A model generated the notes under the pieces. The model had not been told where the DNA came from and did no database searches. It saw nothing but the letters and a program-made list of their open reading frames with translations. Below are positions 5,177 through 28,524 of a stretch of DNA of 32,837 nucleotides, piece by piece (within the stretch, counting starts at the first letter, position 1; every line of letters starts with the position of its first letter). Source of the DNA: Ralstonia sp. ASV6. GTDB lineage: Bacteria > Pseudomonadota > Gammaproteobacteria > Burkholderiales > Burkholderiaceae. Where the stretch lies: the NCBI RefSeq assembly GCF_016429285.1, contig NZ_JAELUI010000059.1, forward strand, positions 1 through 32,837. The letters are read 5' to 3'. Both the position numbers and the translations under genes were made by a program.

Positions 5177-5236
5177 ACGTCATCCGGGGTGCCGGCACTA
5201 CGCTCGGGTCATTGTTCCCTTGGGTGGAGTCCGAAG

Positions 5237-6613: not shown

Positions 6614-6711
6614 GCATTGCGCTGGCGCATACACGCTTTGCAGCGTCGCGCATTCTCGCGGTGCGGGCGCGGCTCTACAGTCAAGCGGACATCCACACGC
6701 TGGAGCCGCCC

Positions 6712-7401: not shown

Positions 7402-7409
7402 AGCCCACC

Positions 7410-7439
7410 AAAAAAATACCCGGCGAGGGGAATGCCGGG
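7410..7439 (-). terminator. Leftward intrinsic terminator
   Basis: Arms CCCGGC (7419-7424) and GCCGGG (7434-7439) enclose nine bases. On the minus strand the stem is followed by TA and seven T residues, a classic intrinsic terminator; on the plus strand no T-run follows. It would end a leftward transcript, yet no convincing leftward gene lies to its right. Confidence 0.7.
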
Positions 7440-7520
7440 CTAAGTGGGATGAGAAAGCTGGTTGATGCGGCGACATTACAAGGGTTCCTTTGAGGAGATT
7501 GAAAAAAATTTTAAAAAAGA

Positions 7521-7751
7521 GTGCGTTTTCGAAGGATTGCTCTAAGTAAACGAGTGCTTATAAATATTCAGTGGATTGGTGATGATCCTTTGCTGGTAAG
7601 GGTTTTCGAGGGGTCGCAAACGATTCGCGAAGAAAGCATCGGATTCAATTGTTTGGCGATGAAAATTAAAATAATGCGCTCGATGTTTCGTCGTAAATTG
7701 ATAAAACATCCGTCTGAATTTCGCCAAATAAAAATGCCTAAATTAAGTTAG
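7521..7751 (+). CDS. Possible small basic protein in AT-rich patch (doubtful)
   Basis: A 76-codon frame from GTG 7521 to TAG. The product is rich in Lys, Arg and Ile, lacks a signal peptide or transmembrane segment, and matches nothing I recognise. There is no good ribosome binding site at the proper distance. Codon and base use are unlike neighbouring genes, so it may be a foreign small gene, a decayed fragment or chance. An equally open 61-codon frame exists on the other strand (7542-7727), which weakens the case. Confidence 0.25.
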   Translation: MRFRRIALSKRVLINIQWIGDDPLLVRVFEGSQTIREESIGFNCLAMKIKIMRSMFRRKLIKHPSEFRQIKMPKLS

Positions 7752-8144
7752 GTGAGTGTGCGAGATGGCCAGCTTTTGCATCTCCGCAATCACTTATCTG
7801 CCTGAGCAGTAATTTTACATTTGTTGAATTTTGGTGCGCCGAGGGCGCCCACAATGCACTCCATTGACGAATCAGTGTCGCCTGCACACCCACCGGGACC
7901 GTGCAACTGAATCGTTTGCGGGCCTGACGGAGCCGCCGCCAATAGAGCGGCCCGTCCGCCCACCGGCCACGCCGCTGTCGTGCGCCGGATGCAAGGCGGC
8001 GACGAACGGGGAAGTTCGTTTTCCATTCATCCATCGATTGTTTCTCGGAGCGGTGTCTGCTCCGCTGGCGGAGCTTTGCGTGTCAGGTCCGGTAGGGCGT
8101 GGTGTGCGGGGTTCTTGCTGGCGGTGCGGGCACGGGAAATCAAT

Positions 8145-11100: not shown

Positions 11101-11237
11101 TGGTGGACCTGCAGGCGGGTGTGACGGCGCAGTTCACGCGCACGGCATCGTTCTATGCCAGCGTGGGCTACCAGATCAGCACCGATGGCCGCCTGCATGG
11201 CTACGACGGCAAGCTCGGCCTGCGCTGGAACTGGTAA
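8145..11237 (+). CDS. Type Va autotransporter with beta-repeat passenger
   Basis: A 1030-residue cell-surface protein. Residues 1-36 are a signal peptide with a basic N-terminus (RRRERQR) and an AKA cleavage site. The passenger (about 37-660) is Gly/Asn/Thr-rich and contains autotransporter-associated beta-strand repeats such as GGTSINGGTVAIGADNALG, predicting a beta-helix. A Pro/Asp/Asn linker (about 665-705) leads to the C-terminal autotransporter beta-barrel (about 725-1030), which ends LGLRWNW with an aromatic last residue as required for BAM recognition. The frame is open to 7980, but ATG 8145 gives the signal peptide; its ribosome binding site is weak (GGGA). A terminator follows at 11318. 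Adhesion or biofilm roles are usual for the family; no protease or lipase motif is seen. The AT-rich upstream DNA hints at acquisition. Confidence 0.93.
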   Translation: MPTSSKLVSRRRERQRMLSMALVASPLTLFAIAAKAACVTSGAVTTCDTTNPNPWTQTVGTGNKAVEDNRTVTVQTGSTISVGSANAISLRDNANINVQGGATVSNNATSGPGLFNTGNNTIEFRNNGTLTVAEGGSVLSNGRQNNGEAVNVMGSGNTVINNGTIRSNNAAAIWFDNLSGSNTIVNNETGVIQAPGNVIGSAGNASVDFTNKGIVRGNLVFAGGDDTLRLYTGSTITGNFDGGGGSNTIYLSGTGDSALPGNISNFQTLIKNDTGTWTLTGTVSGVQSASVQQGTLILTGNNAAYTGNITVDAAGTLQGRAQSLMPTIVNNGLVRFDQPDAGTYAGLISGTGAVEKTGAGTLTLAPTAAGGNTYTGGTSINGGTVAIGADNALGAATGGLSFNGGTLQLNQNLDLAGTRAVTLNAGGGTIDTQGFASMLSQGITGSGALTKLGSGVLTLNGSNSVGGGTTVAAGTLVVGDATHGNASLAGSTLVNSGATLGGFGTVTGSVRNDGTLAVADAVPSLAGTGAGTGTFTINGALFNTGLMQVGGAGMGNRLAVNGGFMGAGGTLALNTQLGADNSPTDQLVLSGGGAAGNTAVRITNVGGAGAQTTGNGIPVVVAINGATTQAGAFALGAPVVAGPYEYTLHRGGNGSADSWYLRSTRPAPDPDPTPNVTPDPNPPTPNVTPDPNGGGTGTTPTPEVPNYRPEVSLYTAVPSMVLMYSRAMLDTLHERVGDETLLRTGVPNGDKAFNGAWARVIGQKGSRMSDGGIYGVDGPAFDYKLAAVQLGGDVYRAQNADNSRDHAGVMFSTGRITGDVTHADGTDAGSNAINATTVGVYWTHFSPNDWYVDAVAQGTRYDVTSSPTRMAGLTSHGLGYALSLETGYPIALENRWRVEPQAQLIYQRIGLADGADPAAQVHFGNAQSLLGRVGVRVAKDWGESPERPRSTWFRASVWQEFRGTTTTSFSSANGWVPFTSSMPATVVDLQAGVTAQFTRTASFYASVGYQISTDGRLHGYDGKLGLRWNW
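10161..10226 (+). repeat. Two 33-bp direct repeats coding for the autotransporter linker
   Basis: Two adjacent 33-bp units (10161-10193, 10194-10226) each encode TPNVTPDPN plus two residues (PP, then GG). They form the proline-rich spacer between passenger and barrel. Tandem in-frame units of this kind can expand or contract by slippage, changing spacer length between strains. Confidence 0.85.
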
Positions 11238-11317
11238 TGCGCTAGCGCCGCCGGCAACACGCGCCGCATGAATACCCCCGGCCACGCTGGGGGTTCTGCT
11301 GCAACGCGACAACCACA

Positions 11318-11355
11318 ACGGGGAGCCCCGGCCTATGCCGGTGGTTCCCCGTTTT
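11318..11355 (+). terminator. Intrinsic terminator of the autotransporter gene
   Basis: Outer arms ACGGGGA (11318-11324) and TCCCCGT (11346-11352) enclose an inner CCGGC/GCCGG stem, followed by a short T-run (GTTTTG). It lies 80 bases after the autotransporter stop; a smaller CCCCC/GGGGG hairpin precedes it. Confidence 0.75.
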
Positions 11356-11499
11356 GCTTGGTACCACGCGGTGTGATGGCCGGCTTGCAAGTTTTTCTCA
11401 TGCATCCCGTGTTCAAGTGGGGAGGCTGGAATTCGTGAAAACCCTAGGAAACCCGCGCCAACCTTAGCGATTGGTTATTTCACACGAAAAGCCTACGCT

Positions 11500-11519
11500 T
11501 ACTACGTAGTACTACGTGT
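11500..11519. promoter_or_regulatory. Palindrome and direct repeats, candidate operator of the symporter operon
   Basis: TACTACGTAG and TACTACGTGT are adjacent 10-bp direct repeats, and the first 12 bases (11500-11511) form a perfect palindrome, TACTACGTAGTA. The site is about 180 bases before the DUF3311 start. The TAC-containing half-sites are compatible with a LuxR/NarL-type response regulator, a class that can control MctP-like permeases, but this is inference from pattern and location. Confidence 0.5.
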
Positions 11520-11692
11520 GGTGAGTGCGTACAGGTGCGGATGGCATTGCGGGGATGGCGCGATCACAGTGCGCCGGATAACAAAAACGACGGAAAGCAC
11601 TTCCTCAGCATTCCGACCGATCACGCGGCGCGCGTGGCACCTCACCGCTTCACAACAACAACCGAAGTCCCTCGAGCATCAGGAGACAACCC

Positions 11693-16781: not shown

Positions 16782-17429
16782 ATGCAGGGTGCGGGGTCGA
16801 TTTACGGATTTCTGGCAGTTGGCGGCATGCTTGCCGTGACACCGGGGCCGAACATGGTCTACGTGATGTCGCGCTCGATCGCGCAAGGACGCACGGCAGG
16901 GTTGATCTCGCTGGCGGGCGTCATGCTCGGCTACCTCTTCTATATGTTCGGGGCGGCGTTCGGCATCACGGCATTCTTCCTGAGCGTGCCCTATGCCGGC
17001 AGCGTTCTGGGTGCGGTGGGCGCGGCCTATCTGTTCTATCTGGCGTGGCAGGCAGTGCGGCCGGGTGGCCGCTCTCCTCTGGAGGTGCGCGATCTGCCGC
17101 GTGAACAGCCGCGCAGGCTGCTGGTGATGGGCGCAACCACAAGCCTGTTGAACCCCAAGCTCGCGATGATATTTCTGTCGCTCTTGCCGCAGTTCATCGA
17201 CTATCAGCACGGCAGCGTTCTTAAACAATCGCTCGCGCTTGGCTCGTCATTGATCGTCGCGTTCGCCACCGTCAATGGCTTGGTGGCAATCTGCTCCGGC
17301 AGCATGGCGACACTGCTATCCCGTCGCCCCGGGCTCCTGCTGGCGCAACGCTGGGCGATGGGCGCTGTCCTGGGGGTGCTGGGCGCACATATGTGCATCG
17401 ATGCGTTTAGGCTGGCGGGCGTGTATTGA
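16782..17429 (+). CDS. LysE/RhtB-family amino-acid or metabolite exporter
   Basis: A 215-residue inner-membrane protein with about six hydrophobic helices. The N-terminal AVTPGPNMVYVMSRSIAQGR is the diagnostic LysE/RhtB motif, and TSLLNPKLAMIFLSLLPQF is the second conserved block. Family members export amino acids such as lysine, homoserine or threonine, or related metabolites. AAGGAG at 16767-16772 supports ATG 16782. The divergent LysR gene is the likely effector-responsive activator. The substrate is not determinable from sequence. It converges with the GST gene across 51 bases. Confidence 0.92.
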   Translation: MQGAGSIYGFLAVGGMLAVTPGPNMVYVMSRSIAQGRTAGLISLAGVMLGYLFYMFGAAFGITAFFLSVPYAGSVLGAVGAAYLFYLAWQAVRPGGRSPLEVRDLPREQPRRLLVMGATTSLLNPKLAMIFLSLLPQFIDYQHGSVLKQSLALGSSLIVAFATVNGLVAICSGSMATLLSRRPGLLLAQRWAMGAVLGVLGAHMCIDAFRLAGVY

Positions 17430-17480
17430 GTGCCGCGCAGCAGCAGGTGCAGCGTGGCTGGAGCCCAGAACAGGCTTCTA

Positions 17481-18134
17481 TCAACCAGCCGATGACTTGC
17501 CGGTGAACACCGCCAACTGAGCCGCGAAAGCCCGCTGGTAAGCAGGCCGCGCTTCACCACGGGCGACATAGGCAACCAGCTTCGGAAATGCATCCAGCAA
17601 GCCCGACGGCCGTAGCCTGAGCAGCACCGACACCATCATCAGATCGCCCGCGCTGAACGCACCATCGAGCCAGTCCGCATCGCCCAGCCGGGCAGAAAGC
17701 TGGTCTAGCCGATGGCGGATGCGATCCATGATCAACGGCAGGCGCTCCTGGGTCCAGGGCTTGTCGCCCTCCTGAAACTTGGCGGTGGAGAGTTCGAGGA
17801 TCGGCGGCTCCACGGTGTTGAGCGCGGCAAACATCCACGTGATTGCCCGCGCCCGCGCATTGCCATCGTTCGGCAGTAGACCCGCATGGCGCTCGGCGAT
17901 ATGGAGAATGATCGCGCCTGTCTCGAACAAGACGAGATCGTCTTCCTCATACGTGGGAATCTGGCCGAACGGCTGAAGGCTCAGATGTGCGGGCGCCTTC
18001 ATCGCATGGAACGAGACAAGGCGAACCTCATAGGGTTGGCCCACTTCTTCGAGCGCCCAGCGAACGCGCGTGTCACGCGCCAGTCCCTTGCCGCCATCGG
18101 GCGACCGTTCAAAGGCAGTGATGATGGGGGTCAT
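17481..18134 (-). CDS. Glutathione S-transferase family protein
   Basis: A 217-residue GST. The N-terminal domain has ERSPDGGKGLARDTRVRWAL and GQIPTYEEDDLVLFETGAII, with the cis-proline of the QIPT motif and the glutathione-binding ET(G/S)AI motif. The C-terminal all-helical domain contains DWLDGAFSAGDLMMVSVL, the usual N-capping/hydrophobic-staple region. The start at 18134 is chosen because AAGGAG lies about nine bases upstream; the open frame reaches 18176. It differs clearly from the GST at 6712, which has a Cys-type motif, so they are not recent duplicates. The substrate is unknown. Confidence 0.87.
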   Translation of the reverse strand: MTPIITAFERSPDGGKGLARDTRVRWALEEVGQPYEVRLVSFHAMKAPAHLSLQPFGQIPTYEEDDLVLFETGAIILHIAERHAGLLPNDGNARARAITWMFAALNTVEPPILELSTAKFQEGDKPWTQERLPLIMDRIRHRLDQLSARLGDADWLDGAFSAGDLMMVSVLLRLRPSGLLDAFPKLVAYVARGEARPAYQRAFAAQLAVFTGKSSAG

Positions 18135-18288
18135 TGGCGTGCTCTCCTTGCCTTGTTTCACTTGCGACGAGTGCATTGCTGACGATTCGATGCGTTCCCG
18201 GTTTGGGGAGCTTGCAGGCCCTTTCTGTTTGATTCAAGAGGCTGTCTATTGGCCCGAGGTACCCGTCCCGTAACGGTGGCTGTGCTGA

Positions 18289-19038
18289 TTGGCACATGGT
18301 TTCACGCCGCGCGCGCATCTACTTTCTCTTCACGGCAACGATCACGACGGACGCGTGAATGTAACCACTGCGTTCAGTGGCACATGCGTCGTTCAGACCG
18401 ACGTTGCCGACCATCCAAACAACCTCGGGAACGCATCGACCATGGACATCACACAGGCTTCTGTCATTGGAGGCAACCTTGTTGCCATCATCAAGCGGGA
18501 CTTCTACAACGGCGGCGCATTCACCGCGATCGGCGGCTTCCCCGTGACCGGGGCGGTCAGGCTGGACAACGGGATCGGCAACGCCGTGCCCAACTCCACG
18601 CTTGGTACCTACGAGCACAACAACGTGACTGACGTGGTCATCGACGTGAACAGCCGCTTGCTCCAGCTTGGCGACAACGCTATCAAGTTCGCCCTGGCGC
18701 ACGAACTGGGCCATGCGTTCAGTGAAAAGCTGGCGTCGGACCTTGGCTATGGCCCCAAGAATCCGCTGGATGGACCGCGTACGGAAATCATTGCGGACCT
18801 GGGCGCCGCCTACCTTCTTAAGCAAGCCGGCGTCAGCTGGGACGATATCTGCAGCGTCGCCAACAACGGTGTTGCTACAGGCATCTTCAACGCAGGCTGG
18901 TCTGGCGACCACCCGCCCGGTGCCAAGCGCGCCGAGTGCGTGAAAAGCCTGGCCGAACTGATGAAGGCCGGCCATAGCTTCAAAGATGCGTTGAAGGGGT
19001 TGCTGCTCAGCCTGGAGGGGTATCGGCCGGGGCACTAG
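18289..19038 (+). CDS. HExxH zincin-like putative metalloprotease
   Basis: An open frame of up to 249 residues. The clear feature is ALAHELGHAF, a HExxH zinc-protease motif, followed about 24 residues later by TEIIADLGAAYLLKQAG, which can supply the third (Glu) ligand. This spacing and the AxLGxAxL helix recall gluzincin folds such as ArdC-type antirestriction or ImmA/IrrE-like domains, but I cannot name the family. No signal peptide or membrane helix is seen. The start is uncertain: TTG 18289 is the earliest, GTG 18355 and ATG 18442 (198 residues) are alternatives, none with a good ribosome binding site; the sequence before 18442 still looks coding. It sits alone between a divergent GST gene and a long intergenic region, so it may be an orphan accessory protein or effector. 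Confidence 0.6.
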   Translation: MAHGFTPRAHLLSLHGNDHDGRVNVTTAFSGTCVVQTDVADHPNNLGNASTMDITQASVIGGNLVAIIKRDFYNGGAFTAIGGFPVTGAVRLDNGIGNAVPNSTLGTYEHNNVTDVVIDVNSRLLQLGDNAIKFALAHELGHAFSEKLASDLGYGPKNPLDGPRTEIIADLGAAYLLKQAGVSWDDICSVANNGVATGIFNAGWSGDHPPGAKRAECVKSLAELMKAGHSFKDALKGLLLSLEGYRPGH

Positions 19039-19413
19039 TCCGCCCTGTCCACGCAGACTGAGCACACGATTGACCCCTTTTTGTATTGCAACGCCGTTGT
19101 GACTTTGGATGTGCAATTGCTGATGTCCAAGCGTGGAGAAGACGCACCCGTGGGCGAGCCGGCAGGTTTTGCTCCTTGCGTGCGTAGTGGAAAGGGCTGG
19201 TACCGAAGCGTGCCGGCCGCTTTCTGCTTGGTTTTGTGTCGGCGTTTGAGAGGCCGAACCCTGATGGCGCTTCCATTTGGCCGGATCAGCGCCGAATCCT
19301 CATCCGGTCATCACGTCGCCGCAGTCCTTATCGAGCCGCCGCCGTCACGCGACGAGGCCAGGGGATGCGGTTCATTCCGGCTCGCACCCCAGCGCCCGGA
19401 ACTATGTGAATTT

Positions 19414-19429
19414 TGTGATCTTCGTCACG
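19414..19429. promoter_or_regulatory. CRP/FNR-type binding-site candidate
   Basis: TGTGA-N6-TCACG at 19414-19429 differs from the canonical CRP consensus TGTGA-N6-TCACA by one base. It is about 195 bases before the predicted sigma-54 transcription start. A CRP-family regulator of an exopolysaccharide operon is plausible; in Burkholderia, c-di-GMP-binding CRP/FNR-type proteins control biofilm polysaccharides. Assignment is by motif only. Confidence 0.55.
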
Positions 19430-19453
19430 GCAGACATAGGCCGTTCGGGCGGA

Positions 19454-19465
19454 CGTTACGTAACG
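19454..19465. promoter_or_regulatory. 12-bp palindrome, candidate enhancer site
   Basis: CGTTACGTAACG is a perfect 12-bp palindrome about 120-130 bases upstream of the sigma-54 promoter, the usual distance for an upstream activating sequence bound by an AAA+ enhancer-binding protein. Confidence 0.5.
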
Positions 19466-19476
19466 CGAAACGTTTT

Positions 19477-19496
19477 AAGTGCTTTTAATTGCACTT
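19477..19496. promoter_or_regulatory. Inverted repeat, second candidate enhancer site
   Basis: Arms AAGTGC (19477-19482) and GCACTT (19491-19496) flank eight A/T bases. It lies about 90-105 bases upstream of the sigma-54 core, again within enhancer distance. Confidence 0.45.
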
Positions 19497-19583
19497 TTCC
19501 ATTGCAATCTCTACACGTTTGGCGGCCCGCTGTGCCTTATGTGACAACGTTTTCATCTGATCCGCAAAATGTTGCTATCGCCG

Positions 19584-19599
19584 TGGCACGCTCTTTGCA
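19584..19599 (+). promoter_or_regulatory. Sigma-54 (RpoN) -24/-12 promoter
   Basis: TGGCACGCTCTTTGCA matches the sigma-54 consensus TGGCACG-N4-TTGCA at every defined base. The -24 GG (19585-19586) and -12 GC (19597-19598) are separated by exactly ten bases. Transcription should begin near 19609-19611, about 105 bases before the first ATG of the polysaccharide operon. Sigma-54 use implies control by a dedicated enhancer-binding protein, which is not encoded in this window. Confidence 0.88.
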
Positions 19600-19714
19600 G
19601 ATTCTCACCTCATAAAAAATTGGTCGCCAGCCGCCGCCGGAAACGCGTCTGGGCGAACCATCACAACAGGTTGGCGCTCGGGTAGCCAGTCTGGACCGAT
19701 GAGGGGAGAGGACG

Positions 19715-21085
19715 ATGTCACTGACTGGCAAGTCGGCGTTTGGCGACAATGTGTTCATCAAGCCGGTGCCACGCTGGCCGGATTCGACCAGGCCGGTGGT
19801 TGAGCCCGCAACGATCAAGATTGCCGTGGTTGGCCTGGGTTATGTGGGCGCGCCGTTGGCGGTGGCATTTTCGCGGCACTTTGCCGTGTCCGGGCTCGAC
19901 ATTGACGCCACACGCGTGGCGGATCTGAGTGAAGGACACGACCGCACCAACGAGCTCACCAGCAACGAGTTGCTTGAAGCCGCCGCGCGTTTCACAACCG
20001 ATGCCACGGTGTTGGGGCAGGCCGACGTCATTGTCGTGACGGTGCCCACGCCGGTAGACCAGGCTCGCGTTCCCGACCTGAACCCGGTGATGCAGGCGTC
20101 CATCTCGGTGGGCAAGCATATGAGGCGCGGGGCGATCGTCGTGTACGAAAGCACGGTCTACCCCGGCGTGACCGAAGAGATCTGCATTCCGCTGCTTGAG
20201 CGCCACAGTGGCTTGAAACACCTGAAGGACTTCCACGTCGGATACTCACCCGAACGCATCAACCCGGGCGACCGCGTGCACACGCTTACCACGATGACCA
20301 AGATTGTGGCCGGCGACACGCCGGAGACGCTCGACGCACTGGTACGTCTGTATGGCGCCGTCACGCAGGTGCATCCGGCCAAGAGCATCAAGGTGGCCGA
20401 GGCGGCCAAGGTGCTAGAGAACACGCAGCGCGACGTGAATATCGCGCTCATGAACGAGGTATCTCAGTTGCTGGGCGCGCTGGGTGTGGACACGCACGAC
20501 GTACTGGCCGCTGCGCGTAGCAAGTGGAATTTTCTGGACTTCCGGCCGGGGTTGGTGGGCGGACACTGCATCTCGGTGGATCCGTACTACCTGACGCACA
20601 AGGCGGCCTCGTGCGGCTTCAATGCAAGCCTGATTCTGGCGGCGCGCGAGACCAACGACAGCATGTCGCAGTTTGTGGTGGATCAGCTCATGCGGCGCAT
20701 GACGCAGTGCTACCTGCTGAGCCCGCATACCGTCGTGACCATCCTTGGCATGACGTTCAAGGAAGACGTGCCCGACATCCGCAACTCCAAGGTGGCCGAC
20801 ATCGTGAAAAAGCTCGGTGCGCTGGGCATCCGTACGCAGGTTGTCGACCCACTGGCCGACAGCGGCGAGGTGACGCACGAATACGGCTTCTGCCTGACAC
20901 GCCTGGCCGATGCCAAACCGGCGGACGCGATCGTGCTGGCCGTGCCGCACACGGAATACCGCGAGGGCGGCTGGACGCTGGTGGAGTCGCTCGCCAAGCC
21001 AGGTGCGTCATTCGTGGTGAGTGATCTTAAGGCCGTGCTGGACCGGGATACCTGCCCGGACCGTGCAGTGCTGTGGCGGCCCTGA
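19715..21085 (+). CDS. Nucleotide-sugar 6-dehydrogenase (UDP-HexNAc / UDP-glucose type, TviB/WbpO-like)
   Basis: A 456-residue cytosolic NAD-dependent enzyme that oxidises the C6 hydroxyl of a UDP sugar to a carboxylate, giving a uronic acid donor. The Rossmann motif is G40-L-G-Y-V-G45, GYSPERINPGD is a substrate-binding block, and GGHCISVDPYYL carries catalytic C285. The PERINPGD and PYYLTHKA segments resemble UDP-N-acetylhexosamine dehydrogenases (TviB, WbpO, WecC) more than the short Ugd group, so UDP-GalNAcA or UDP-GlcNAcA is my best guess; UDP-glucose is not excluded. GGAGAGGACG precedes ATG 19715. It is the first gene of a five-gene operon behind a sigma-54 promoter and supplies the precursor for the synthase that follows 39 bases downstream. 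Confidence 0.88.
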   Translation: MSLTGKSAFGDNVFIKPVPRWPDSTRPVVEPATIKIAVVGLGYVGAPLAVAFSRHFAVSGLDIDATRVADLSEGHDRTNELTSNELLEAAARFTTDATVLGQADVIVVTVPTPVDQARVPDLNPVMQASISVGKHMRRGAIVVYESTVYPGVTEEICIPLLERHSGLKHLKDFHVGYSPERINPGDRVHTLTTMTKIVAGDTPETLDALVRLYGAVTQVHPAKSIKVAEAAKVLENTQRDVNIALMNEVSQLLGALGVDTHDVLAAARSKWNFLDFRPGLVGGHCISVDPYYLTHKAASCGFNASLILAARETNDSMSQFVVDQLMRRMTQCYLLSPHTVVTILGMTFKEDVPDIRNSKVADIVKKLGALGIRTQVVDPLADSGEVTHEYGFCLTRLADAKPADAIVLAVPHTEYREGGWTLVESLAKPGASFVVSDLKAVLDRDTCPDRAVLWRP

Positions 21086-21124
21086 GTTCTGTCTTTCGTC
21101 TTTCCCTCACGGTGTTCCCCTGCC

Positions 21125-22420
21125 ATGGAAGCCTATCTGCTGCTGACGCTCTCGCTCGGCTGGGTACTGTCGGCCCTGCTGTATCTGATCCCGCTGCTGT
21201 GCGTGATCTTCTGGCGCAAAGAAACCTTTCTGGCGAAGGACTTCTCTGTGCAGCGCCGCGTGTCGGTACTGCTGCCTTGCTTTAACGAGGGCCCGCACGC
21301 TTACGACACGATCAAGAGCATTAGCGAGTCGAACTATCCGGCCGGGCTGCTGGAGATCGTTGCCGTGGATGACCACTCCACTGACGACAGCTGGGAGTGG
21401 ATTCAGATGGCGCAGCATGACTTCTCGGGTGCGGTGCGTATCTCTGCCTATCGGCAGCCTGTGAACAAGGGCAAGTACGAAGCGCTGAACCGTGCGGCCA
21501 ACATCGCGACCGGTGCCGAGATCTTCATCTGTATCGACAGCGATTGCACGTTCCATCCGGATGCGGTGCGCGAGCTGGTGGCGTCGTTCACCTCGGAGAA
21601 GATCGCCGCGGTGGGCGGGCACGTGCGCGTGAGCAATGTCAACGAGAACCTCGTCACCAAAACACAGGCAACGGTGTACTTCTACGCCTACAAGGTGATG
21701 AAGATGTTCCAGAACCGCCTGCGCAATGTCACGTGCATCAGCGGTTGCTTGTTTGCCATCCGGCGTGACGCGTTCTTCGAGATTGAAGACGACGTGAAGA
21801 CGTGCAATTTCCTCGGTGCCAAGTTCTCGGCCGGTGAAGACCGCTACATGACGCACCTGCTGATGCTGCGTGGGTATCAGACGGCCGTGAACCTCGATGC
21901 CATCTGCTGGACCGAGGTGCCGACCACCTTCCGCAAGTTCTTTACGCAGCAGTGGCGCTGGCGCCGCAGCGGCACGCAGGACTACTTGCTCACGTTGCGC
22001 ACGCTGGGTCGCCACGCGCGCAACGTGCATCCGCTCTCGGCCATGAACCTGATCCTGCCCGAAACGGTGAATTACCTGATGTTGTTCACCTTCGTCTTTG
22101 CGATTGCCTCAGGCAATGCGCTGGAGTGGATCGTCTCGCACCAGGTGTTTACCTACACGGTGTTTGCGCCATTCCTGATTGGCGTGCACATCTGGGCAAA
22201 GCGGTGCGCACCGGATCAAGCCGTGGAGGGTGGCCCTCTGCCGCTGCTGCCGTTCATTGCGGCATGGGCACTGGCAGGCACCGTTACCTGCGCAATGATG
22301 GCCATCTTCACGATGGACTCAAGCAGTTGGGGCACACGTGTTGCCAAGAAGCAGGAGGAACCCACGGGTGCCGCTGAAGACGGCGCCGCAGTCGAAGGCA
22401 TGCAGCCGCAGCAGGGCTGA
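21125..22420 (+). CDS. Processive family 2 glycosyltransferase (polysaccharide synthase)
   Basis: A 431-residue inner-membrane glycosyltransferase of the hyaluronan/chitin/cellulose synthase type. An N-terminal helix (about 5-28) precedes the GT-A domain, with D82-D83 (VDDHS), D138-x-D140 (DSDCT), the catalytic-base aspartate in GEDRY (D239) and Q275-Q-W-R-W279 (QxxRW), the mark of processive synthases. Two or three more helices (about 315-335, 340-358, 372-395) follow, then a hydrophilic tail. It should polymerise a UDP sugar and push the chain across the membrane. No PilZ domain is present. Spacing after the dehydrogenase is 39 bases and no good Shine-Dalgarno is seen, so coupling to the upstream gene is likely. 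Confidence 0.9.
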   Translation: MEAYLLLTLSLGWVLSALLYLIPLLCVIFWRKETFLAKDFSVQRRVSVLLPCFNEGPHAYDTIKSISESNYPAGLLEIVAVDDHSTDDSWEWIQMAQHDFSGAVRISAYRQPVNKGKYEALNRAANIATGAEIFICIDSDCTFHPDAVRELVASFTSEKIAAVGGHVRVSNVNENLVTKTQATVYFYAYKVMKMFQNRLRNVTCISGCLFAIRRDAFFEIEDDVKTCNFLGAKFSAGEDRYMTHLLMLRGYQTAVNLDAICWTEVPTTFRKFFTQQWRWRRSGTQDYLLTLRTLGRHARNVHPLSAMNLILPETVNYLMLFTFVFAIASGNALEWIVSHQVFTYTVFAPFLIGVHIWAKRCAPDQAVEGGPLPLLPFIAAWALAGTVTCAMMAIFTMDSSSWGTRVAKKQEEPTGAAEDGAAVEGMQPQQG

Positions 22421-22483
22421 CGATCACAAAAACAAATCGAACGGACCGGCTCCATGCAGGAGACGGCCGGGGGAGCTCAGACA

Positions 22484-23548
22484 ATGTTTTATCGTTCCAT
22501 GCGCTGGAAGGGCGCGGTCTTTCTCACGTTGTCGGTGTTGCCAATGCTTGCTGTGGCCGGTGAGGCGGATCTGTTCTGCGAGCTGTCTGGCGTTCAGGCC
22601 GATGCGGAATCGACGGTGCTCGACGCACCGTATGCCTTCGTCAACGTGGGCAACCCGTCCATTTCCAACAAGGTTGTGTCAGCGGGCGTGAGCAAGAGCC
22701 TGTCGCAGGCGCGTCGCGCGGGCCTGGTGCAGGAGCGCGCGGCGGCTGAGTGCGAGGCGTATCGATCTGGCCTGGCGCTCAAGGCGTCGGTTGACGGTGT
22801 GCCCGCCAAGATTGAACTGCGCTCTCTGGAAGCGCGGCGGCAAGGTTTGGCGCAGGCGCTGGATTCCGCCGAGCGCAACCTCGCTACGGAACAGACCCTG
22901 CTGGCCAGCAACGACGCCACGCTGGCCGATCTCACGGCAGCACTGCGCTTGCGAGACGGCATTGCGATGGACTTGGCTGCGTTGCGCCAGCGTGAGGCAG
23001 AACTCTCCACCGCCGCAGAGCCAGCCCAGCAGCCGTTGGGCAATCTGGTGAGCCAGAACGCCGTTGCGCAGGCGCGTGCCGCCCAACTGGCTTCCCGCGT
23101 GAACGCCACGCTCGGCTGGGACGTGACGATCCTGGCTGGCATGCGTCACGACTTCACTTCCGGATCGCAGTCGCCATTCATCGGGCTGACGGCATCGCGC
23201 AGCTTTGGCTATGACGCCTCGGTACGTGCTTCTGACCGCGTGGGCGAACTCACCGCCAAGCTGGTCGCGGAGCAGCGCGACGGCGCGTATCAACAAATCC
23301 AGCGCATGCGCCAGTCGCTTGAAGGTGTGCTGAGCGCTGAGGCGCTGCGCCAGCACAGCCTTGAGCAGCGCAACGAGGTCATCCGCACGCTGATCGAGCG
23401 GGCGCAGGGTGTCGATACCAATGCCTCACGCCGCCTGTTGCGCAACATGTCTGTGGAGCGCCTGACTACGTCGGCAGAGCTGGCCGCCAGCAGTGCTCGC
23501 ATTCACGGTATCGACGCTTGGCTCAAGGCCAATCCCAACCTCAACTGA
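22484..23548 (+). CDS. Exported helical protein, possibly TolC-like outer-membrane component
   Basis: A 354-residue exported protein. A signal peptide (about 1-26, ending AVAG) is followed by long Ala/Arg/Gln/Glu-rich helices (mature residues about 60-200 and 230-330) that flank a short beta-prone section, GMRHDFTSGSQSPFIGLTAS. Two helical halves with a strand segment between them resemble the layout of TolC-family outer-membrane factors, but the protein is shorter and I see no direct family motif, so this is inference. Mature cysteines occur in LFCELSG and AECEAYR. ATG 22484 is preferred because GGGGAG at 22469-22474 is nine bases upstream; ATG 22454 is the alternative. It lies between the synthase and the HlyD-like gene in one operon and probably serves export of the polymer. 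Confidence 0.7.
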   Translation: MFYRSMRWKGAVFLTLSVLPMLAVAGEADLFCELSGVQADAESTVLDAPYAFVNVGNPSISNKVVSAGVSKSLSQARRAGLVQERAAAECEAYRSGLALKASVDGVPAKIELRSLEARRQGLAQALDSAERNLATEQTLLASNDATLADLTAALRLRDGIAMDLAALRQREAELSTAAEPAQQPLGNLVSQNAVAQARAAQLASRVNATLGWDVTILAGMRHDFTSGSQSPFIGLTASRSFGYDASVRASDRVGELTAKLVAEQRDGAYQQIQRMRQSLEGVLSAEALRQHSLEQRNEVIRTLIERAQGVDTNASRRLLRNMSVERLTTSAELAASSARIHGIDAWLKANPNLN

Positions 23549-23585
23549 TCTGATCTCAACTCCAACAACCTGCGGGGCACCTCTG

Positions 23586-24650
23586 ATGATTGCCGCCTTC
23601 TCGAACTACTTTCAGTCGAAGATGCTCGTTGTCTACCGGCTGGCCTCGTTTCTTGTGCTGATTGCCATCATCGGCGGCATCTTCGGCTACATCGCGCTGC
23701 TGTTCTTCTACCTGCAGAGCACGAGCTGGGGTGCGCCGCTGGTGATCTCGCCCGCGCAGGAGCGGGTGCTTTCGTATCAGCCGCAGGTGGCGCAGTTACG
23801 CGCCCAGCTCGACAAGCAGCGTGCGGACCTGGCAGACCTCAACGCACAACTGGCAGTCAAGCAGGAAGGGCTCCAGGCGCTTGACGCGTTGATCGCGCGT
23901 ACGACTGAAGCCCAGCAGCGCCAGATCCAGAACATGTCGCATGTGTCCAGGAATCTTGGGCACTTGGTGTCCCTCAAGTCCGTCGACATTGCGGACAGCG
24001 AGCGGGCGCACGCGCAACTCAAGAACATGATGGCGTCAACCGATGCGGAATTGCGTGCCGGCCTGATCTCCAAGGAAGACGCAGCGGCTCGCATGGTTAC
24101 GCTGCAGTCGTCGGCCAATGCCCTGACGGATTCGAAGATCGCCGCGGTGCAGGTGGGCGTGAACTCGACGCAGAGTCGGGCCGTGATGTCAACGCTGGGC
24201 GGTGCGGCGGACGACCTGCAGACCATGACCACGCTGGCGCAGACGCAGCAGATGATCTTCTCGCGCATGCAGCTCAAGGCCGACATCGATTCGGCGAAAA
24301 GCAATGTGGTCGTGCTGCAGGCGAGCATCAAAGAGTCAGAGCGCATTCTGATGGTGGCGATGCGCACGCCCTATTACAAGGCACTCACGCAGCCGGTGTC
24401 GGTGGCCTTCGTCCCCTACGAGAACATGGAACGCGCCAAGGCCGGTGAGCCCGTGTACGACTGCGTCCTGCAGATCTTTCTGTGCAGGCAAGTCGGCAAG
24501 GTGGCTGCCACTTACGATGCCGAGGAGTATGCCAAGCACCCGCTGTTCCGCTACGACCTCAAGGGCAAGCTGGTTGAGGTCAATTTCAGCGATCCGGCAT
24601 CGAGCACCAGCCGTGTTGTTTTCTTCGGCCGCAAGCCGCTGCTGCTGTGA
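23586..24650 (+). CDS. HlyD-like membrane fusion protein of polysaccharide export
   Basis: A 354-residue protein anchored by one N-terminal transmembrane helix (about 18-46), with a large periplasmic part. Residues about 60-105 and 200-285 are coiled-coil (QVAQLRAQLDKQRADLADLNAQ and later Gln/Ser-rich helices); the C-terminal 75 residues are beta-rich. This is the hairpin-plus-beta layout of periplasmic adaptor proteins of the HlyD/Alg44/EmrA kind, although a clear lipoyl half-motif is not obvious. Two cysteines six residues apart (CVLQIFLC) may form a periplasmic disulphide. The ATG at 23586 is chosen; the frame is open upstream into the preceding gene. It would bridge the synthase and the outer-membrane component. 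Confidence 0.72.
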   Translation: MIAAFSNYFQSKMLVVYRLASFLVLIAIIGGIFGYIALLFFYLQSTSWGAPLVISPAQERVLSYQPQVAQLRAQLDKQRADLADLNAQLAVKQEGLQALDALIARTTEAQQRQIQNMSHVSRNLGHLVSLKSVDIADSERAHAQLKNMMASTDAELRAGLISKEDAAARMVTLQSSANALTDSKIAAVQVGVNSTQSRAVMSTLGGAADDLQTMTTLAQTQQMIFSRMQLKADIDSAKSNVVVLQASIKESERILMVAMRTPYYKALTQPVSVAFVPYENMERAKAGEPVYDCVLQIFLCRQVGKVAATYDAEEYAKHPLFRYDLKGKLVEVNFSDPASSTSRVVFFGRKPLLL

Positions 24651-24658
24651 GGCCCGCC

Positions 24659-25411
24659 ATGCTGCGTCATCCATTCCATCTGCTGTGTTTGCTCGTAAGC
24701 ATTGCGGGCACCTGCACTGTGGCGATGGCCCGAGAGGTTGAGTTCTCTGGCCAGCGCTGGGTGGTCCGCTCATCCGGCGGGCAATTGAGCGGGCCAGGTC
24801 CCAACGTGTTTTCAGACGGCCTGGACGCTGTGCGTGTCGATGCCCAGGGGCGCTTGCGCATGGCCATCGCCAAGACCCCGCAGGGTTGGCATTCGGCTGA
24901 GGTGACGCTTTCCCGGCCGCTGGGCTACGGCACCTATGAGTTGGACGTTGAGACCAATCCGTTCGGCATGGACCGCCAAGCAGTCTTCGGCTTTTTCAGC
25001 TATAGCAGTGCACCGGAGCAGGCCCATCGCGAGCTTGATGTGGAACTGTCGTACTGGGGGCGGCCGGGTGAGGCCAACAATGCGCAGTTTGTCGTGCAGC
25101 CTTCGGGCGCTCCCGATACCTTGCGACGGTTCCAGGTCAATCACGGCCCGGTGACCTATCGCATCCGATGGGAACGCGGACTGGCGGAGTTCAGTGCCAC
25201 TACGGCAGATGGCGCGGTGCTGCAGCACTGGTCCCGCACGGTGGGCGTGCCCGAAGCGGGCGATGCCCGTATCCAACTGAACCTGTGGCTGTTCCAGGGC
25301 AAGCCGCCGCAGAACGGTCAGCCGGTGGAATTCGTGGTGCGGGGGTTCCGTTTTTCCCCGAGTGGCGCGGCGGGTGCCGGCCCCGTTCCCGTCAGTGGAC
25401 CACAGCGGTGA
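24659..25411 (+). CDS. Secreted glycoside hydrolase family 16 protein
   Basis: A 250-residue exported enzyme. A signal peptide (1-24, ending AMA) is followed by a GH16 jelly-roll domain: GYGTYELDVE on an inner strand, then the catalytic E125-L-D127-V-E129, the ExDxE form of the GH16 active site. GH16 enzymes cut beta-1,3 or beta-1,4 bonds in glucans and galactans; in polysaccharide operons they usually trim, release or clear the product. GAGG at 24649-24652 supports ATG 24659; GTG 24647 overlaps the previous stop. It is the last gene of the sigma-54 operon, eight bases after the adaptor gene. Its 3' end overlaps the convergent GH18 gene by 20 bases. Confidence 0.88.
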   Translation: MLRHPFHLLCLLVSIAGTCTVAMAREVEFSGQRWVVRSSGGQLSGPGPNVFSDGLDAVRVDAQGRLRMAIAKTPQGWHSAEVTLSRPLGYGTYELDVETNPFGMDRQAVFGFFSYSSAPEQAHRELDVELSYWGRPGEANNAQFVVQPSGAPDTLRRFQVNHGPVTYRIRWERGLAEFSATTADGAVLQHWSRTVGVPEAGDARIQLNLWLFQGKPPQNGQPVEFVVRGFRFSPSGAAGAGPVPVSGPQR

Positions 25412-26468
25412 TGGCGCTCCAGAAGCTGGCGTTTTCCGCGCCCAGCACCCACATCGATACGCCGGCCAGATTCAACGTGTTGGCCATGGCTGCCTTGGTT
25501 TGCAGGCCCTGTGCGGTTTCATACCAGACCTCATGCGCACTGCCATCGGTGGCCGTGTAGTTGAAGTGGCCCGATTGGGTGGTGGCGTCCCATTGGGCGG
25601 TTGCGCCCGTTGTGGTGATCAACGCAGGGATGTCTTTGAAGGCGACCGAGGTGCCGGTGTTCCGTGTGCGATTCCAGTCATAACCATACGCGGGCAGGCC
25701 AAGCAGCAGCTTGGCTGCAGGCACGACGCCTGCGGCGTATTGCAGCGAAGCGAGCATCCAGTCGCTGCCGGCAACCGGGCCGGGTTGACCGCTCGGCACG
25801 TGCTCGTCGTAGGTCATGACCTGGATGAGGTCAGCGCTTTGCCCCAGCGCGGCGTAGTCGTACGGCCACGTCCACGTGTTGCCGATCGCGTCTGCGGTCT
25901 TGGCAGGCAGGCTCAGCATGAGCGTGGATTGGTTGGCGTGCAGTTGCGTAGCTAGGTCGGCAACGAAGCTGGTGTAGGCGTCGCGATCGGACGTATACAG
26001 GCCTTCGAAATCGAGGTTGATGCCGGCCAGGTTCTGCGTTTTGGCCAGTGTGACGATGTTCTGCAGCGTCGTCGCACGGTTGGTGACGAGCGCACCGTGC
26101 GCGATGGCCGGATCGAAGTCCGTGCCAAAGTTCGTGATACAGGCGTATGAAAGTTTGCCTGCCGACTGGTTGTTTGACAGCAGCGCGGTCGACAGCGTGC
26201 CGTTCAAACTACCGTTTGCATCAACACGGACGACGTCGATGGAGATGGCATTGACTGGCGTAGTGGCACTCATGGCGGCAGCCATCGATGTTGTGCTGCC
26301 CAGTGCGTAGCCCAATAGCATCTTGGGCGTGGCCGTCGAGATCTTGGTGGTGGTTGGGGGTGTGGCGGCGGGGGCAACCGCTCCGGTGGCCGAGGCACCG
26401 TCGCCACCGCCGCAAGCGGACAGCAGCAGTGCAGCGTACGCCGCGCCGATTAGACCGATCACTTTCAT
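25392..26468 (-). CDS. GH18 lipoprotein, YaaH/SleL type
   Basis: A 358-residue predicted lipoprotein. The lipobox LSAC gives lipidated C19, followed by a low-complexity Gly/Ala/Pro/Thr linker to about residue 45. The GH18 barrel has NLDFEGL with D153 and the acid/base E155, and VMTYDEH and LLLGLPAYGYDWNR, the signature of YaaH/SleL-type enzymes acting on N-acetylglucosaminyl bonds of peptidoglycan or related glycans. No LysM domain is present. It is anchored in the envelope and faces the periplasm or surface. It converges on the polysaccharide operon, overlapping the GH16 3' end by 20 bases. A role in processing the same polymer is possible only if that polymer contains GlcNAc-type residues. 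Confidence 0.88.
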   Translation of the reverse strand: MKVIGLIGAAYAALLLSACGGGDGASATGAVAPAATPPTTTKISTATPKMLLGYALGSTTSMAAAMSATTPVNAISIDVVRVDANGSLNGTLSTALLSNNQSAGKLSYACITNFGTDFDPAIAHGALVTNRATTLQNIVTLAKTQNLAGINLDFEGLYTSDRDAYTSFVADLATQLHANQSTLMLSLPAKTADAIGNTWTWPYDYAALGQSADLIQVMTYDEHVPSGQPGPVAGSDWMLASLQYAAGVVPAAKLLLGLPAYGYDWNRTRNTGTSVAFKDIPALITTTGATAQWDATTQSGHFNYTATDGSAHEVWYETAQGLQTKAAMANTLNLAGVSMWVLGAENASFWSAITAVVH

Positions 26469-26567
26469 GTGAAACCCCGTTCGTGTTTGTGTTCTGTCGG
26501 GGTCTATCGGTCTCGTGCGCAGAACCTTGAGACGTCAACGCCTCATCCGTATGCCCTAGGGATGAAG

Positions 26568-26579
26568 CGTGATGTCACG
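26568..26579. promoter_or_regulatory. Small dyad upstream of the GH18 gene
   Basis: CGTGATGTCACG has 5-bp arms around TG, about 100 bases upstream of the GH18 start. CCCTAGGG lies just beyond it. Either could be an operator; no regulator can be assigned. Confidence 0.3.
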
Positions 26580-26608
26580 TGTTTGAAGCGGCTGTGAGAG
26601 CCATACAC

Positions 26609-26630
26609 AGCAGGCGGAAAGCCGCCCGCT
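26609..26630 (-). terminator. Hairpin after the DUF2076 gene, possible terminator
   Basis: AGCAGGCGG and CCGCCCGCT pair except for one position around AAAG. It lies 23 bases beyond the DUF2076 stop on the minus strand. No T-run follows, so it may be a weak or Rho-assisted terminator. Confidence 0.4.
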
Positions 26631-26652
26631 GGGGTGTCTGTGCGCTGTTTGC

Positions 26653-27348
26653 CTAGCTCAACAACGAATCATCATCCGAATAATCACCGCCACCCAGGTC
26701 GCTATCGTCGACCAGCCCAAGGCTGTCATCACGCGAGGCCGTGTTGTTGCTGTTGCCGCTGTCACCGTCGTAGTAATTGTTGATCACCGTTTCTGTGGTG
26801 CCGCCCATCAACGGCTGCTGACCAAAGAAGCCGCCTCCGCCGCCACTGTTGTGGTGGAACAGGTTCTCAATGCCCTGGAATAGGAGCGCGCCGCCTGCCA
26901 CGCCGGCTGCCGTGGTGGCCACGCTGCCGAGCGTGCTGCCCAGGCCGCCGCTCAAGAAGCCCGAGCGTACGGGTTGCACCGGGGCCTGTTGTACTGGTTG
27001 GGCCTGAGGCGGCATCTGCATGGGGGCCACCTGTTGGGGAGCGAACCCCGGGTTGGGTGCTGCGCTGTTGGCGTGGCTGCCCCAGTTGTTGGCCGAATCC
27101 ATGAACGACGCACTGCGGCCGGCTTGCGCTGCCTGCAACTGGTTTTGCAGGGTGGTGATCTGCGTCTGGGCCGATGCCAGCGCCTGGTCGAGCAGCATGG
27201 CGCGCTGCACGAGCAGGTAAGCGGCGTCCGGCTGGCGGGCGGCGGCTTCCAGAATGCGGGCTTCGGCCTGCGGGTCCTTGGCCCCCGCGCGCGCTTGCGT
27301 CAGTTGGGCCAGGAAGTTTTCCAGGGCTTGCAGTTCTTGCGGGGACAT
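26653..27348 (-). CDS. DUF2076 domain protein
   Basis: A 231-residue protein. The N-terminal 80 residues are helical (MSPQELQALENFLAQLTQAR, with a Gln-rich coiled coil ITTLQNQLQAAQAG), the middle is a Pro/Gln/Met-rich linker, then comes a small hydrophobic glycine-rich helix (about 140-163, ending GALLFQGIENLFH), and the acidic tail is Asp/Ser/Asn-rich. This order is that of DUF2076 proteins, described only as putative periplasmic sensor-like proteins; their function is unknown. There is no classical signal peptide. AGGA nine bases upstream supports the start at 27348. It stands alone with 107 bases separating it from the regulator gene upstream. Confidence 0.82.
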   Translation of the reverse strand: MSPQELQALENFLAQLTQARAGAKDPQAEARILEAAARQPDAAYLLVQRAMLLDQALASAQTQITTLQNQLQAAQAGRSASFMDSANNWGSHANSAAPNPGFAPQQVAPMQMPPQAQPVQQAPVQPVRSGFLSGGLGSTLGSVATTAAGVAGGALLFQGIENLFHHNSGGGGGFFGQQPLMGGTTETVINNYYDGDSGNSNNTASRDDSLGLVDDSDLGGGDYSDDDSLLS

Positions 27349-27455
27349 GGCGCTTGTTCCTATCTGGGTGGATGCGACGTGTCCAAGTTAGGGGCCAAGT
27401 CTTAAGCGAACATTAAAGCGGGGCCGGTTCTTGTGTAACGGCCTGTAACGCCGCC

Positions 27456-28427
27456 CTACGCTGCTGGCCGGTACTGGCTCGGATTGGCGCCCGTTACCTT
27501 GCGCATCAGGCGCCGCAGGGCGGTGGCGTCTTCGTAGCCCACGGCTTCGGCTACGCTGTCGATGGTCATGCGGCTGGATTCGATCAGCATGCGGGCGCGG
27601 TTCAGGCGCACGCTTTGTATCAGGGCGAGGGTGCTTCTGCCGGTGGCTTCCTGCACGTGCCGCGACAGCGTGCGTTGCGACATGGCAAATTCATCGGCCA
27701 GCGCCTGCACGCTGGGTGGGTTGGGCAAGGCGGCTTCAACGCGCGCCACCAGCCGCGCAATCAGCGCGTTGCCGTTGGCCAGCATGGCGGGCACCACAAA
27801 TGGCGCCTGCGCGTGGCGGCCATCGATCAGCAGCACGCGCCCCACGGCATCGGCCAGCGCCACGCCAAAGCGTGTGCGCAGCAGGTGCAGCATCAAATCG
27901 GTCTGCGCGAAGGCGGCGCCGGCGGTGCTGATGGGGCCATCGGCGCAGACCATGCGATTCGCATCGACCGTGCATGCGGGTTCCAACTGCTGCAGCGTGG
28001 CGGCCAGCCACCAAGAAGTTGTCACACGGCGCGCCGGCAGCAGCCCGGCCGCCTGCAGCAGAAACACGGCAGAACACGATGCCGCCACCTGGCCGCCTGC
28101 TGCCGCATGTGCGGCCAGGGTGCGTGCCGCCCGCTGCGCATCGTCACGCGCCAGGCGTGCGGCCAGGGCACCCGCGTCGTCGATGCCGAGCCCAGGCACG
28201 ACCCACGTGCTGCTATCGGGCCGGGGCCGTTTTGGCAAGGCTGCCGCGTCGATCTGCATGCCGCTGCTCAGCCGCACACTGGGCGCGTCTGCTGACAGTA
28301 CACGCCATGTCGGGCGCGCCGCCTTCACGCGCGGCGCGAGTGTTGACGCTGCCTGCAGAACGTCCAGTGTGGCCGCCACGCTGGTCGCATACGCGCCCGA
28401 GAGTACGAGGATGGTGAAATCCGCCAT
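27456..28427 (-). CDS. GlxA-family transcriptional regulator (DJ-1/PfpI-like plus AraC domains)
   Basis: A 323-residue regulator. Residues 1-170 form a DJ-1/PfpI-like domain starting MADFTILVLSG, with ASCSAVFLL as the nucleophile-elbow region. Residues about 215-320 form the AraC double helix-turn-helix (LADEFAMSQRTLSRHVQEA and DSVAEAVGYEDATALRRLM). The start at 28427 is chosen because the DJ-1 fold begins there; the frame is open far upstream (to 28904) across the divergent gene, which is a shadow. It is divergent from the tautomerase-like gene with 97 bases between starts, and so probably controls the tautomerase/dienelactone-hydrolase pair. Confidence 0.9.
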   Translation of the reverse strand: MADFTILVLSGAYATSVAATLDVLQAASTLAPRVKAARPTWRVLSADAPSVRLSSGMQIDAAALPKRPRPDSSTWVVPGLGIDDAGALAARLARDDAQRAARTLAAHAAAGGQVAASCSAVFLLQAAGLLPARRVTTSWWLAATLQQLEPACTVDANRMVCADGPISTAGAAFAQTDLMLHLLRTRFGVALADAVGRVLLIDGRHAQAPFVVPAMLANGNALIARLVARVEAALPNPPSVQALADEFAMSQRTLSRHVQEATGRSTLALIQSVRLNRARMLIESSRMTIDSVAEAVGYEDATALRRLMRKVTGANPSQYRPAA

Positions 28428-28524
28428 GACCAAAATTGCCTGAAAGATGTCGAAATCGACACTCCAAGTGTAGCGGCCGCTCGCGTTCAATGCAGGTATG
28501 CCCACCACACGCAAGGTTGCCCGC

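Follow-up and report, generated by a model that had tools for sequence, protein, structure and literature searches.

A putative exopolysaccharide synthase unit of Ralstonia sp. ASV6 with TolC-like and adaptor-like proteins as its candidate exit

The stretch of DNA analysed here, 32,837 nucleotides of Ralstonia sp. ASV6 (assembly GCF_016429285.1, contig NZ_JAELUI010000059.1, positions 1–32,837; hereafter the window), contains a five-gene unit at 19715–25411 and raises the question of how the product of a polysaccharide synthase would leave the cell. The original prediction, made from the sequence alone, had read the unit as an exopolysaccharide operon in which the synthase extrudes the chain and a TolC-like protein and an adaptor carry it outward without an ABC or MFS pump. 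The source genome had a size of 5.9 Mb. All five predicted open reading frames (ORFs) were present on the plus strand, and the gaps between them, given as 8–63 bases, were 39, 63, 37, and 8 bases with the starts used here. The genes of the unit and the adjoining gene are as follows, where GT2 denotes glycosyltransferase family 2, TM a transmembrane segment, OMF an outer-membrane factor, and HexNAc an N-acetylhexosamine.

19715–21085, plus strand, P0001 (DH): nucleotide-sugar 6-dehydrogenase, TviB-like, probably of the UDP-HexNAc type, with the catalytic motif GGHC.
21125–22420, plus strand, P0002 (GT2): synthase of the GT2 type, putatively processive, that has TM segments and the motifs DD, DSD, GED, and QQWRW; no PilZ match.
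22484–23548 (alternative start 22454), plus strand, P0003 (P3): protein whose start resembles a signal peptide, with helical stretches and, by eye, two strand pairs; very divergent TolC/OMF-like candidate.
23586–24650, plus strand, P0004 (P4): inner-membrane-anchored periplasmic adaptor-like protein with a TM helix, a strand, a long helical hairpin and a beta domain.
24659–25411, plus strand, P0005 (P5): secreted GH16 enzyme, lichenase-like, with an intact ExDxE motif; found in 8 of the 19 non-redundant loci.
25392–26468, minus strand: GH18 lipoprotein with an LDFE motif, convergent, overlapping the P5 end by 20 bases; 5 of the 19 loci have a homologue next to the unit.

We favour, with moderate confidence, the reading that the unit is a synthase-dependent exopolysaccharide system with an exit of its own that follows the plan of a tripartite pump. 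The core of the unit recurs as a whole. The genes of DH, GT2, P3, and P4 were found together on one strand in all 19 non-redundant loci (overlaps removed), and all four were present in both partial sets, in 14 of 14 loci with the window included and in another 14 of 14. The gene order varied (DG34H, 43DHG, DG43, D43G, G43D, and 3DG4; D, G, 3, and 4 stand for the core genes), and recurrence of the complete set in 19 of 19 loci is not due to chance. The gene-neighbourhood search proposed with the original prediction returned the core in scattered Burkholderiales, and homologues of P3 or P4 apart from the synthase were not seen, with GT2 in every locus. Apart from GH16 and ORFs that mostly overlapped the core in other frames, no additional family in the flanking sequence retrieved was common to more than 5 of the 19 loci.

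A search with P4 found it in 11 of 398 Burkholderiaceae genomes, at 12 places, and in 2 of 399 genomes of the order, the window included. Among named records, 14 P4 loci belonged to Ralstonia, Paraburkholderia, Caballeronia, Cupriavidus, Acidovorax, Xylophilus, Hydromonas, and two metagenome-assembled genomes, and one Paraburkholderia plasmid carries P4; these 14 loci were found with one short peptide pattern and are no census, and one locus (L039) was a 5.2-kb contig with little flank. Because P4 had been the bait for the loci, the P3 profile, composed of 18 members, was also searched in six frames over the 398 Burkholderiaceae genomes. Strong P3 matches (E < 1e-100) occurred in 11 of the 398 genomes, at 12 places, and these were the same genomes as for P4. 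The own-family P3 matches were partly the rows of the profile itself and matched by construction, and with the best five or fewer candidates scored per genome in the P3 and P4 profile searches, weak relatives of either protein may be missed; both points count against the preferred reading. Unlike the matches to its own rows, the finding of no further genome with a strong P3 is informative. Within the genus, P3 and P4 were both present in 4 of 16 genomes.

GT2, P3, and P4 diverge together. Across the 19 loci, pairwise identities correlated with r values of 0.93 for P3–P4, 0.92 for GT2–P4, and 0.88 for GT2–P3, and those of DH correlated with the other three at 0.68, 0.75, and 0.76 (all p 0.001 by permutation, the tests not being independent because of kinship among the rows). 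A natural exchange of parts was seen in Ralstonia sp. UNC404CL21Col (locus L038, unit at 6326–11557), where a Ralstonia-type DH stands with Paraburkholderia-type GT2, P3, and P4. Its DH shared 91, 93, and 96 percent identity with those of the window, L033, and L034, respectively. Its GT2, P3, and P4 shared 38, 15–17, and 39 percent identity with the window type and 65–68, 43–48, and 54–63 percent with the Paraburkholderia/Caballeronia/Cupriavidus type. GT2, P3, and P4 look like an inseparable core and DH like an exchangeable part, as would be expected if the three are in mutual contact and DH does no more than supply them.

Several loci had further features. A genome of 2.4 Mb (G111) carried two copies of the unit (L027 and L028) of different subfamilies. 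Related resolvase-like ORFs, with GYARVST recognised by eye, hint at mobility; they lay upstream of the unit in four loci of Paraburkholderia/Caballeronia (L019, 5943–7302; L023, 5003–6190; L036, 4995–6267; L044, 4711–6110). In a small-genome relative, two RTX-repeat proteins were encoded directly downstream of the unit (L026, 3792–6255).

The N-terminus of P3 was hydrophobic and signal-peptide-like (peak at 10–28), as had been described for it, whereas the single strand segment of that description gave way to two strand pairs (~50–73 and ~211–240) discerned by eye. An invariant cysteine pair, C32/C90, may form a disulfide; such a pair is unusual in TolC proteins. Outside its own family, the P3 profile gave three matches in the 398 genomes (E 2.3e-5, 1.9e-4, and 5.6e-4, among the best five or fewer candidates per genome), and all three were TolC-type proteins (OEP 3.5e-48, 2.5e-51, and 1.8e-50). 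The match was located on the first helical hairpin and included its turn motif, nATlaDv in P3 and gEATiiDm in TolC. In a ranking test with 19 OMFs (the three profile matches and 16 of this genome), 16 adaptors, and 735 reversed or shuffled decoys, six OMFs (the three profile matches and 3 of the 16) ranked above all decoys, five of them with E < 0.02. The OMF and adaptor profiles of this genome each started from 17 ORFs and held 16 after removal of L072 and L089, which mismatched in length. Profile-profile comparison of P3 with the 16 OMFs gave 81.6 percent (E 1.1e-5), compared with 2.4 and 0.5 percent for the reversed controls, and a second alignment (13.3 percent) mapped to the other repeat of the OMFs. 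With its first half alone, P3 reached 88.3 percent. In addition, the best alignments of all three P3 subfamilies overlapped on one OMF hairpin, whereas the reversed ones lay at three different places.

A number of results weigh against this kinship. Thirteen of the 19 OMFs failed to outrank the decoys, the second half of P3 alone reached 2.8 percent against the OMF profile, and the two halves did not match each other (3.0 percent). Taken singly, the three P3 subfamilies reached only 12.1, 1.8, and 1.3 percent against the OMFs. The adaptors themselves reached 67.4 percent over 55 columns of the same OMF profile, so hairpin likeness accounts for part of the P3 score. Furthermore, no scanned P3 reached the cut-off of 22 of the Pfam OEP model (PF02321), the best scores being 19.9 bits (L024) and 7.6 bits (L022). 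Searched against Protein Data Bank (PDB) sequences, the P3 profile matched nothing convincingly (best E 0.027, mostly coiled coils), and kinship with acyl-CoA-binding proteins, RNase Y, or PilO was rejected, the weak matches being of the coiled-coil kind. On balance, the profile comparisons relate P3 to the OMFs in sequence, and P3 is likely a divergent member of their kin.

P4, which had been called a single-helix HlyD-like protein, has one TM segment (22–40) and no second TM peak. Polysaccharide co-polymerases, unlike P4, have a second TM segment. The AlphaFold model of P4 (mean predicted local distance difference test score 82, predicted template modelling score 0.54) contains a helix (2–44), a strand (48–54), a helix (59–157), a turn (158–162), helices (163–259), and a beta domain (271–347). 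The model has adaptor topology, namely one TM helix, a long periplasmic helical hairpin, and then a beta domain, in line with the earlier assignment. The beta domain carries the invariant cysteines C293 and C300, which may form a disulfide. All 14 aligned members have [LM]-x-x-G-[LI]-x-[ST] at the hairpin turn, a count that rests on the alignment because an automated pattern search found the tip in only 11 of 19 proteins, stopping at the TM segment in seven and finding nothing in L034. By its sequence, the tip resembles that of adaptors that dock to TolC. The RLS motif of adaptor tips is given as RxxxLxxxxxxS in the portion of the source available (PMC3391258).

The adaptor assignment has to be set against other results. 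The P4 tip, [LM]-x5-[ST], lacked an arginine at the RLS spacing (by eye, 14 aligned members), and the strict RLS motif was absent. P4 reached just 12.5 percent against the adaptor profile, and structure matches of its model were mostly unrelated coiled coils, with the membrane fusion protein (MFP) LipC at rank 46. The P4 profile gave no convincing match among PDB sequences (best E 0.01, mostly coiled coils), and assignments as SMC, ATG14, or similar proteins were rejected as weak matches of the coiled-coil kind. Over 398 genomes of the phylum, the P4 profile gave two full-length matches, its own and one of the same order. Five weak ones, by reading one adaptor of the type 1 secretion kind, three OMFs of one genus, and one kinase, were too unspecific to be of use. 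On balance, an adaptor role of P4 is quite likely.

A synthase, a TolC-like protein, and an adaptor-like protein thus stand together as the original prediction had proposed for export, P3 being linked to this role by profiles and P4 by its model; that P3 and P4 form the conduit is what we infer from them. The same proteins could instead form a periplasmic scaffold, with the chain leaving through a porin of the outer membrane whose gene lies elsewhere in the genome. AlgK and parts of Alg44 act as such a scaffold. P3 is short, it contains the C32/C90 pair, and its OEP score lies under the cut-off, all of which would suit a scaffold, and the porin search covered the proteins of the unit. The reach of the P3 profile to TolC proteins outside its own family argues for a duct instead, as does the lack of any further family, GH16 and core-overlapping ORFs aside, in more than 5 of the 19 flanks; a unit with a patchy occurrence in several genera would be left without its porin. 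We regard the scaffold as unlikely, and an exit through P3 and P4 is preferred.

Which polymer would take this exit is suggested by DH and GT2. DH, predicted as a nucleotide-sugar dehydrogenase, has three UDPG_MGDP_dh domains in the Pfam scan as well as the GGHC motif, and scored 374.4 bits, above the cut-off, with TIGR03026. Its best NCBIfam model was TviB, of the UDP-GlcNAc 6-dehydrogenase type (407.7 bits; the TviB equivalog cut-off of 592 was not reached), and the UDP-glucose dehydrogenase models scored lower (AglM 135.2, TuaD 105.9, and PRK15057 46.7). Its solved relatives were, in rank order, CalS8, Cap5O, a hypothetical UDP-ManNAcA dehydrogenase, and an NDP-GalNAcA dehydrogenase, followed by GDP-mannose and UDP-glucose enzymes. 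DH scores nearest to the UDP-HexNAc type, so the uronic acid of the original prediction is better read as an N-acetylhexosaminuronic acid. Because CalS8, the top solved relative, presumably acts on a nucleotide-glucose, UDP-HexNAc is a best guess for the substrate and not proven.

GT2 belongs to glycosyltransferase family 2 by Pfam, with hydropathy peaks at 1–19, 309–327, and 372–390. The predicted motifs DD, DxD, GED, and QxxRW were all found, as DD, DSD, GED, and QQWRW, and DSD, GED, and QxxRW were kept in the GT2 of all 19 loci; from its family, the enzyme would be processive. Its best PDB matches were hyaluronan synthases (2.8e-20), and its best NCBIfam models, NodC (135.6 bits) and PgaC (122.6 bits), were both below cut-off.

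The ExDxE motif claimed for P5 was invariant in all eight relatives, and the P5 family profile matched 1,3-1,4-beta-glucanases (lichenases) in the PDB (2.2e-12). Four of the eight family members had a GH16 Pfam match (best 3.8e-7). The single P5 sequence of the window had no Pfam match, and the GH16 model searched against its own genome found nothing. The adjoining GH18 gene scored 108.5 bits with Pfam GH18 (cut-off 29.6), with LDFE, which holds the catalytic acid of the DxE motif, in five of five homologues, and was the only GH18 found in this genome. Within the genus, the genomes with GH18 matches below 1e-25 were precisely the 4 of 16 that have the unit, and these matches were located at it. 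Two weaker ones lay away from the unit, in G004, which has it, and in G011, which lacks it (1.1e-6, above the cut-off with neighbours). In Paraburkholderia solitsugae (L035), GH18 stood on the opposite side of the unit. GH18 enzymes use a 2-acetamido group, and GH16 enzymes of the lichenase type suit beta-1,3/1,4 links. The adjoining GH18 fits an N-acetylated chain and the GH16 would fit beta-1,3/1,4 links. GH16 was not seen in 11 and GH18 in 14 of the 19 loci, which counts against the preferred reading. We infer that the product is likely an N-acetylated, uronic-acid-containing beta-polymer. In the Caballeronia calidae locus (L045), GH16 and GH18 were not seen, and a 291-aa protein (9059–9934), perhaps secreted and with no Pfam match at 0.01, is encoded directly behind the unit.

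A short chito-oligosaccharide, a signal like the Nod factors, exported by the P4–P3 pair would be a quite improbable alternative product. NodC is the best NCBIfam model of GT2, a GH18 gene adjoins the unit, and a few sources were insect or leaf by record or name, whereas GT2 scored far under the NodC cut-off (135.6 against 550) and no NodB- or NodA-like family was found among the five proteins. DH in 19 of 19 loci and the lichenase-like GH16 would fit a longer, acidic chain better. In NodC with NodIJ-NodT, export combines a NodC-like synthase with an OMF (NodT), as would be the case here, but it runs through an ABC transporter and the products are short lipo-oligosaccharides.

The long acidic polymer that we prefer as the product leads to the known synthase-dependent systems. 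According to the portion of the survey available, such operons are defined by a synthase, a c-di-GMP part, modifying enzymes, and a pore with tetratricopeptide repeats (TPR), and Bcs, Alg, Pga, and Pel share with the unit one inner-membrane GT2 synthase, a periplasmic partner, modifying enzymes (putative ones in the unit), an outer-membrane exit (a candidate one in the unit), and arrangement in one operon (PMC7112194). Unlike them, the unit has a TolC-like P3, an adaptor-like P4, and DH in all 19 loci. As originally predicted, no TPR-repeat or porin family and no c-di-GMP receptor domain (PilZ, GGDEF, or similar) was found by Pfam in the five window proteins. No TPR or porin family was among the matches listed for 18 P3 and 18 P4 members (25 of 29 for P4), TPR_MLP1_2 being a coiled-coil family.

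That the unit is one of the described types (alginate, cellulose, PNAG, Pel, or mixed-linkage glucan) in rearranged form appears very unlikely. GH16 lichenases cut the mixed-linkage beta-glucan type of linkage, and GT2 with its partner recalls Alg8/Alg44. The nearest published layout found, likened by description, was bgsBA of Sinorhizobium/Rhizobium, in which a GT2 synthase stands with a partner whose HlyD-like domain is thought to help form a channel, and GT2 with a HlyD-like partner indeed recalls BgsA/BgsB (PMC9495663, as far as its available text goes). However, bgsBA is a two-gene operon, the C-terminus of its synthase binds c-di-GMP, and no OMF or dehydrogenase is named in that text (PMC9495663). 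No Bcs, Alg, Pga, or Pel model scored above cut-off for the five proteins, which also have no PilZ, TPR, or porin domain, and P3 and DH are present in 19 of 19 loci. No published description of this gene set was found by title and abstract start in the open-licence literature. The unit appears to work like a synthase-dependent system outside the described types, possibly as a class of its own.

With tripartite efflux and type 1 secretion systems (HlyD/AcrA with TolC), the unit shares an OMF-like and adaptor-like pair and turn motifs at the hairpin tips. It differs in that the strict RLS motif is absent and, as had been predicted for pumps of the ABC and MFS kinds, no ABC, RND, or MFS domain was found by Pfam in the five proteins; the synthase would be the motor. 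MFS genes at 2.8–13 kb from the unit in 3 of the 19 loci weigh against this pump-free reading. A small-molecule efflux pair (MFP and OMF) standing beside sugar genes by chance is already disfavoured and hardly credible: such pairs abound (this genome has 36 OEP and 20 HlyD_3 matches) and an MFS gene lies in those three flanks, but the five proteins have no transporter domain, and GT2 is present in 19 of 19 loci with a divergence that tracks P3 and P4. The MFS-type gene of the window (5189–6613; 13 kb from the unit) is related to those near the units of L035 (3534–5231; 2.8 kb) and L038 (16282–17035; 4.7 kb), with Pfam scans covering the genes of the window and L035.

In the mechanism that we propose for the synthase-dependent system, DH would make UDP-N-acetylhexosaminuronic acid, most likely UDP-GlcNAcA (GlcNAc, N-acetylglucosamine; GlcNAcA, its uronic acid), which GT2 would polymerise, probably with UDP-GlcNAc. 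Hyaluronan and cellulose synthases extrude the chain through their own membrane channel, and GT2 would push its growing beta-linked chain in the same way. P4, anchored in the inner membrane, would surround the synthase exit, and its helical hairpin would reach up to P3, a shortened TolC relative of the outer membrane that would meet P4 at the hairpin tips and form the outer duct. GH16 and GH18 may shorten the chain or remove it, either within the envelope or outside.

Around the unit, no Rfam element reached the gathering score in 17000–28500, and promoter- and terminator-like sites were not above shuffled controls. Elsewhere in the window (7872–11405), long ORFs overlap on opposite strands (1177 aa on minus and 1085 aa on plus); that on the minus strand had no Pfam match at 0.01.

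In the best-known synthase-dependent systems, the chain leaves through a TPR-linked outer-membrane pore. If the proposed reading is true, a TolC-like channel with an adaptor would be an unusual exit route for such a polymer. The accessible portion of a 2020 survey describes cellulose operons of alphaproteobacteria that lack the BcsC pore and suggests that export there follows a novel mechanism (PMC7112194). A route through TolC and an adaptor would be a mechanism of this kind, and four genes suffice to test it. There is about an even chance that the unit represents a distinct secretion class in which the synthase replaces the pump, so that synthase, adaptor, and reduced TolC relative would together make up an unbroken duct for an acidic aminoglycan of the GlcNAc/GlcNAcA type, with a swappable three-gene core spread through Burkholderiales. 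The natural exchange in L038 would then show which parts must match, and an acidic amino-sugar polymer would be predicted in Burkholderiales.

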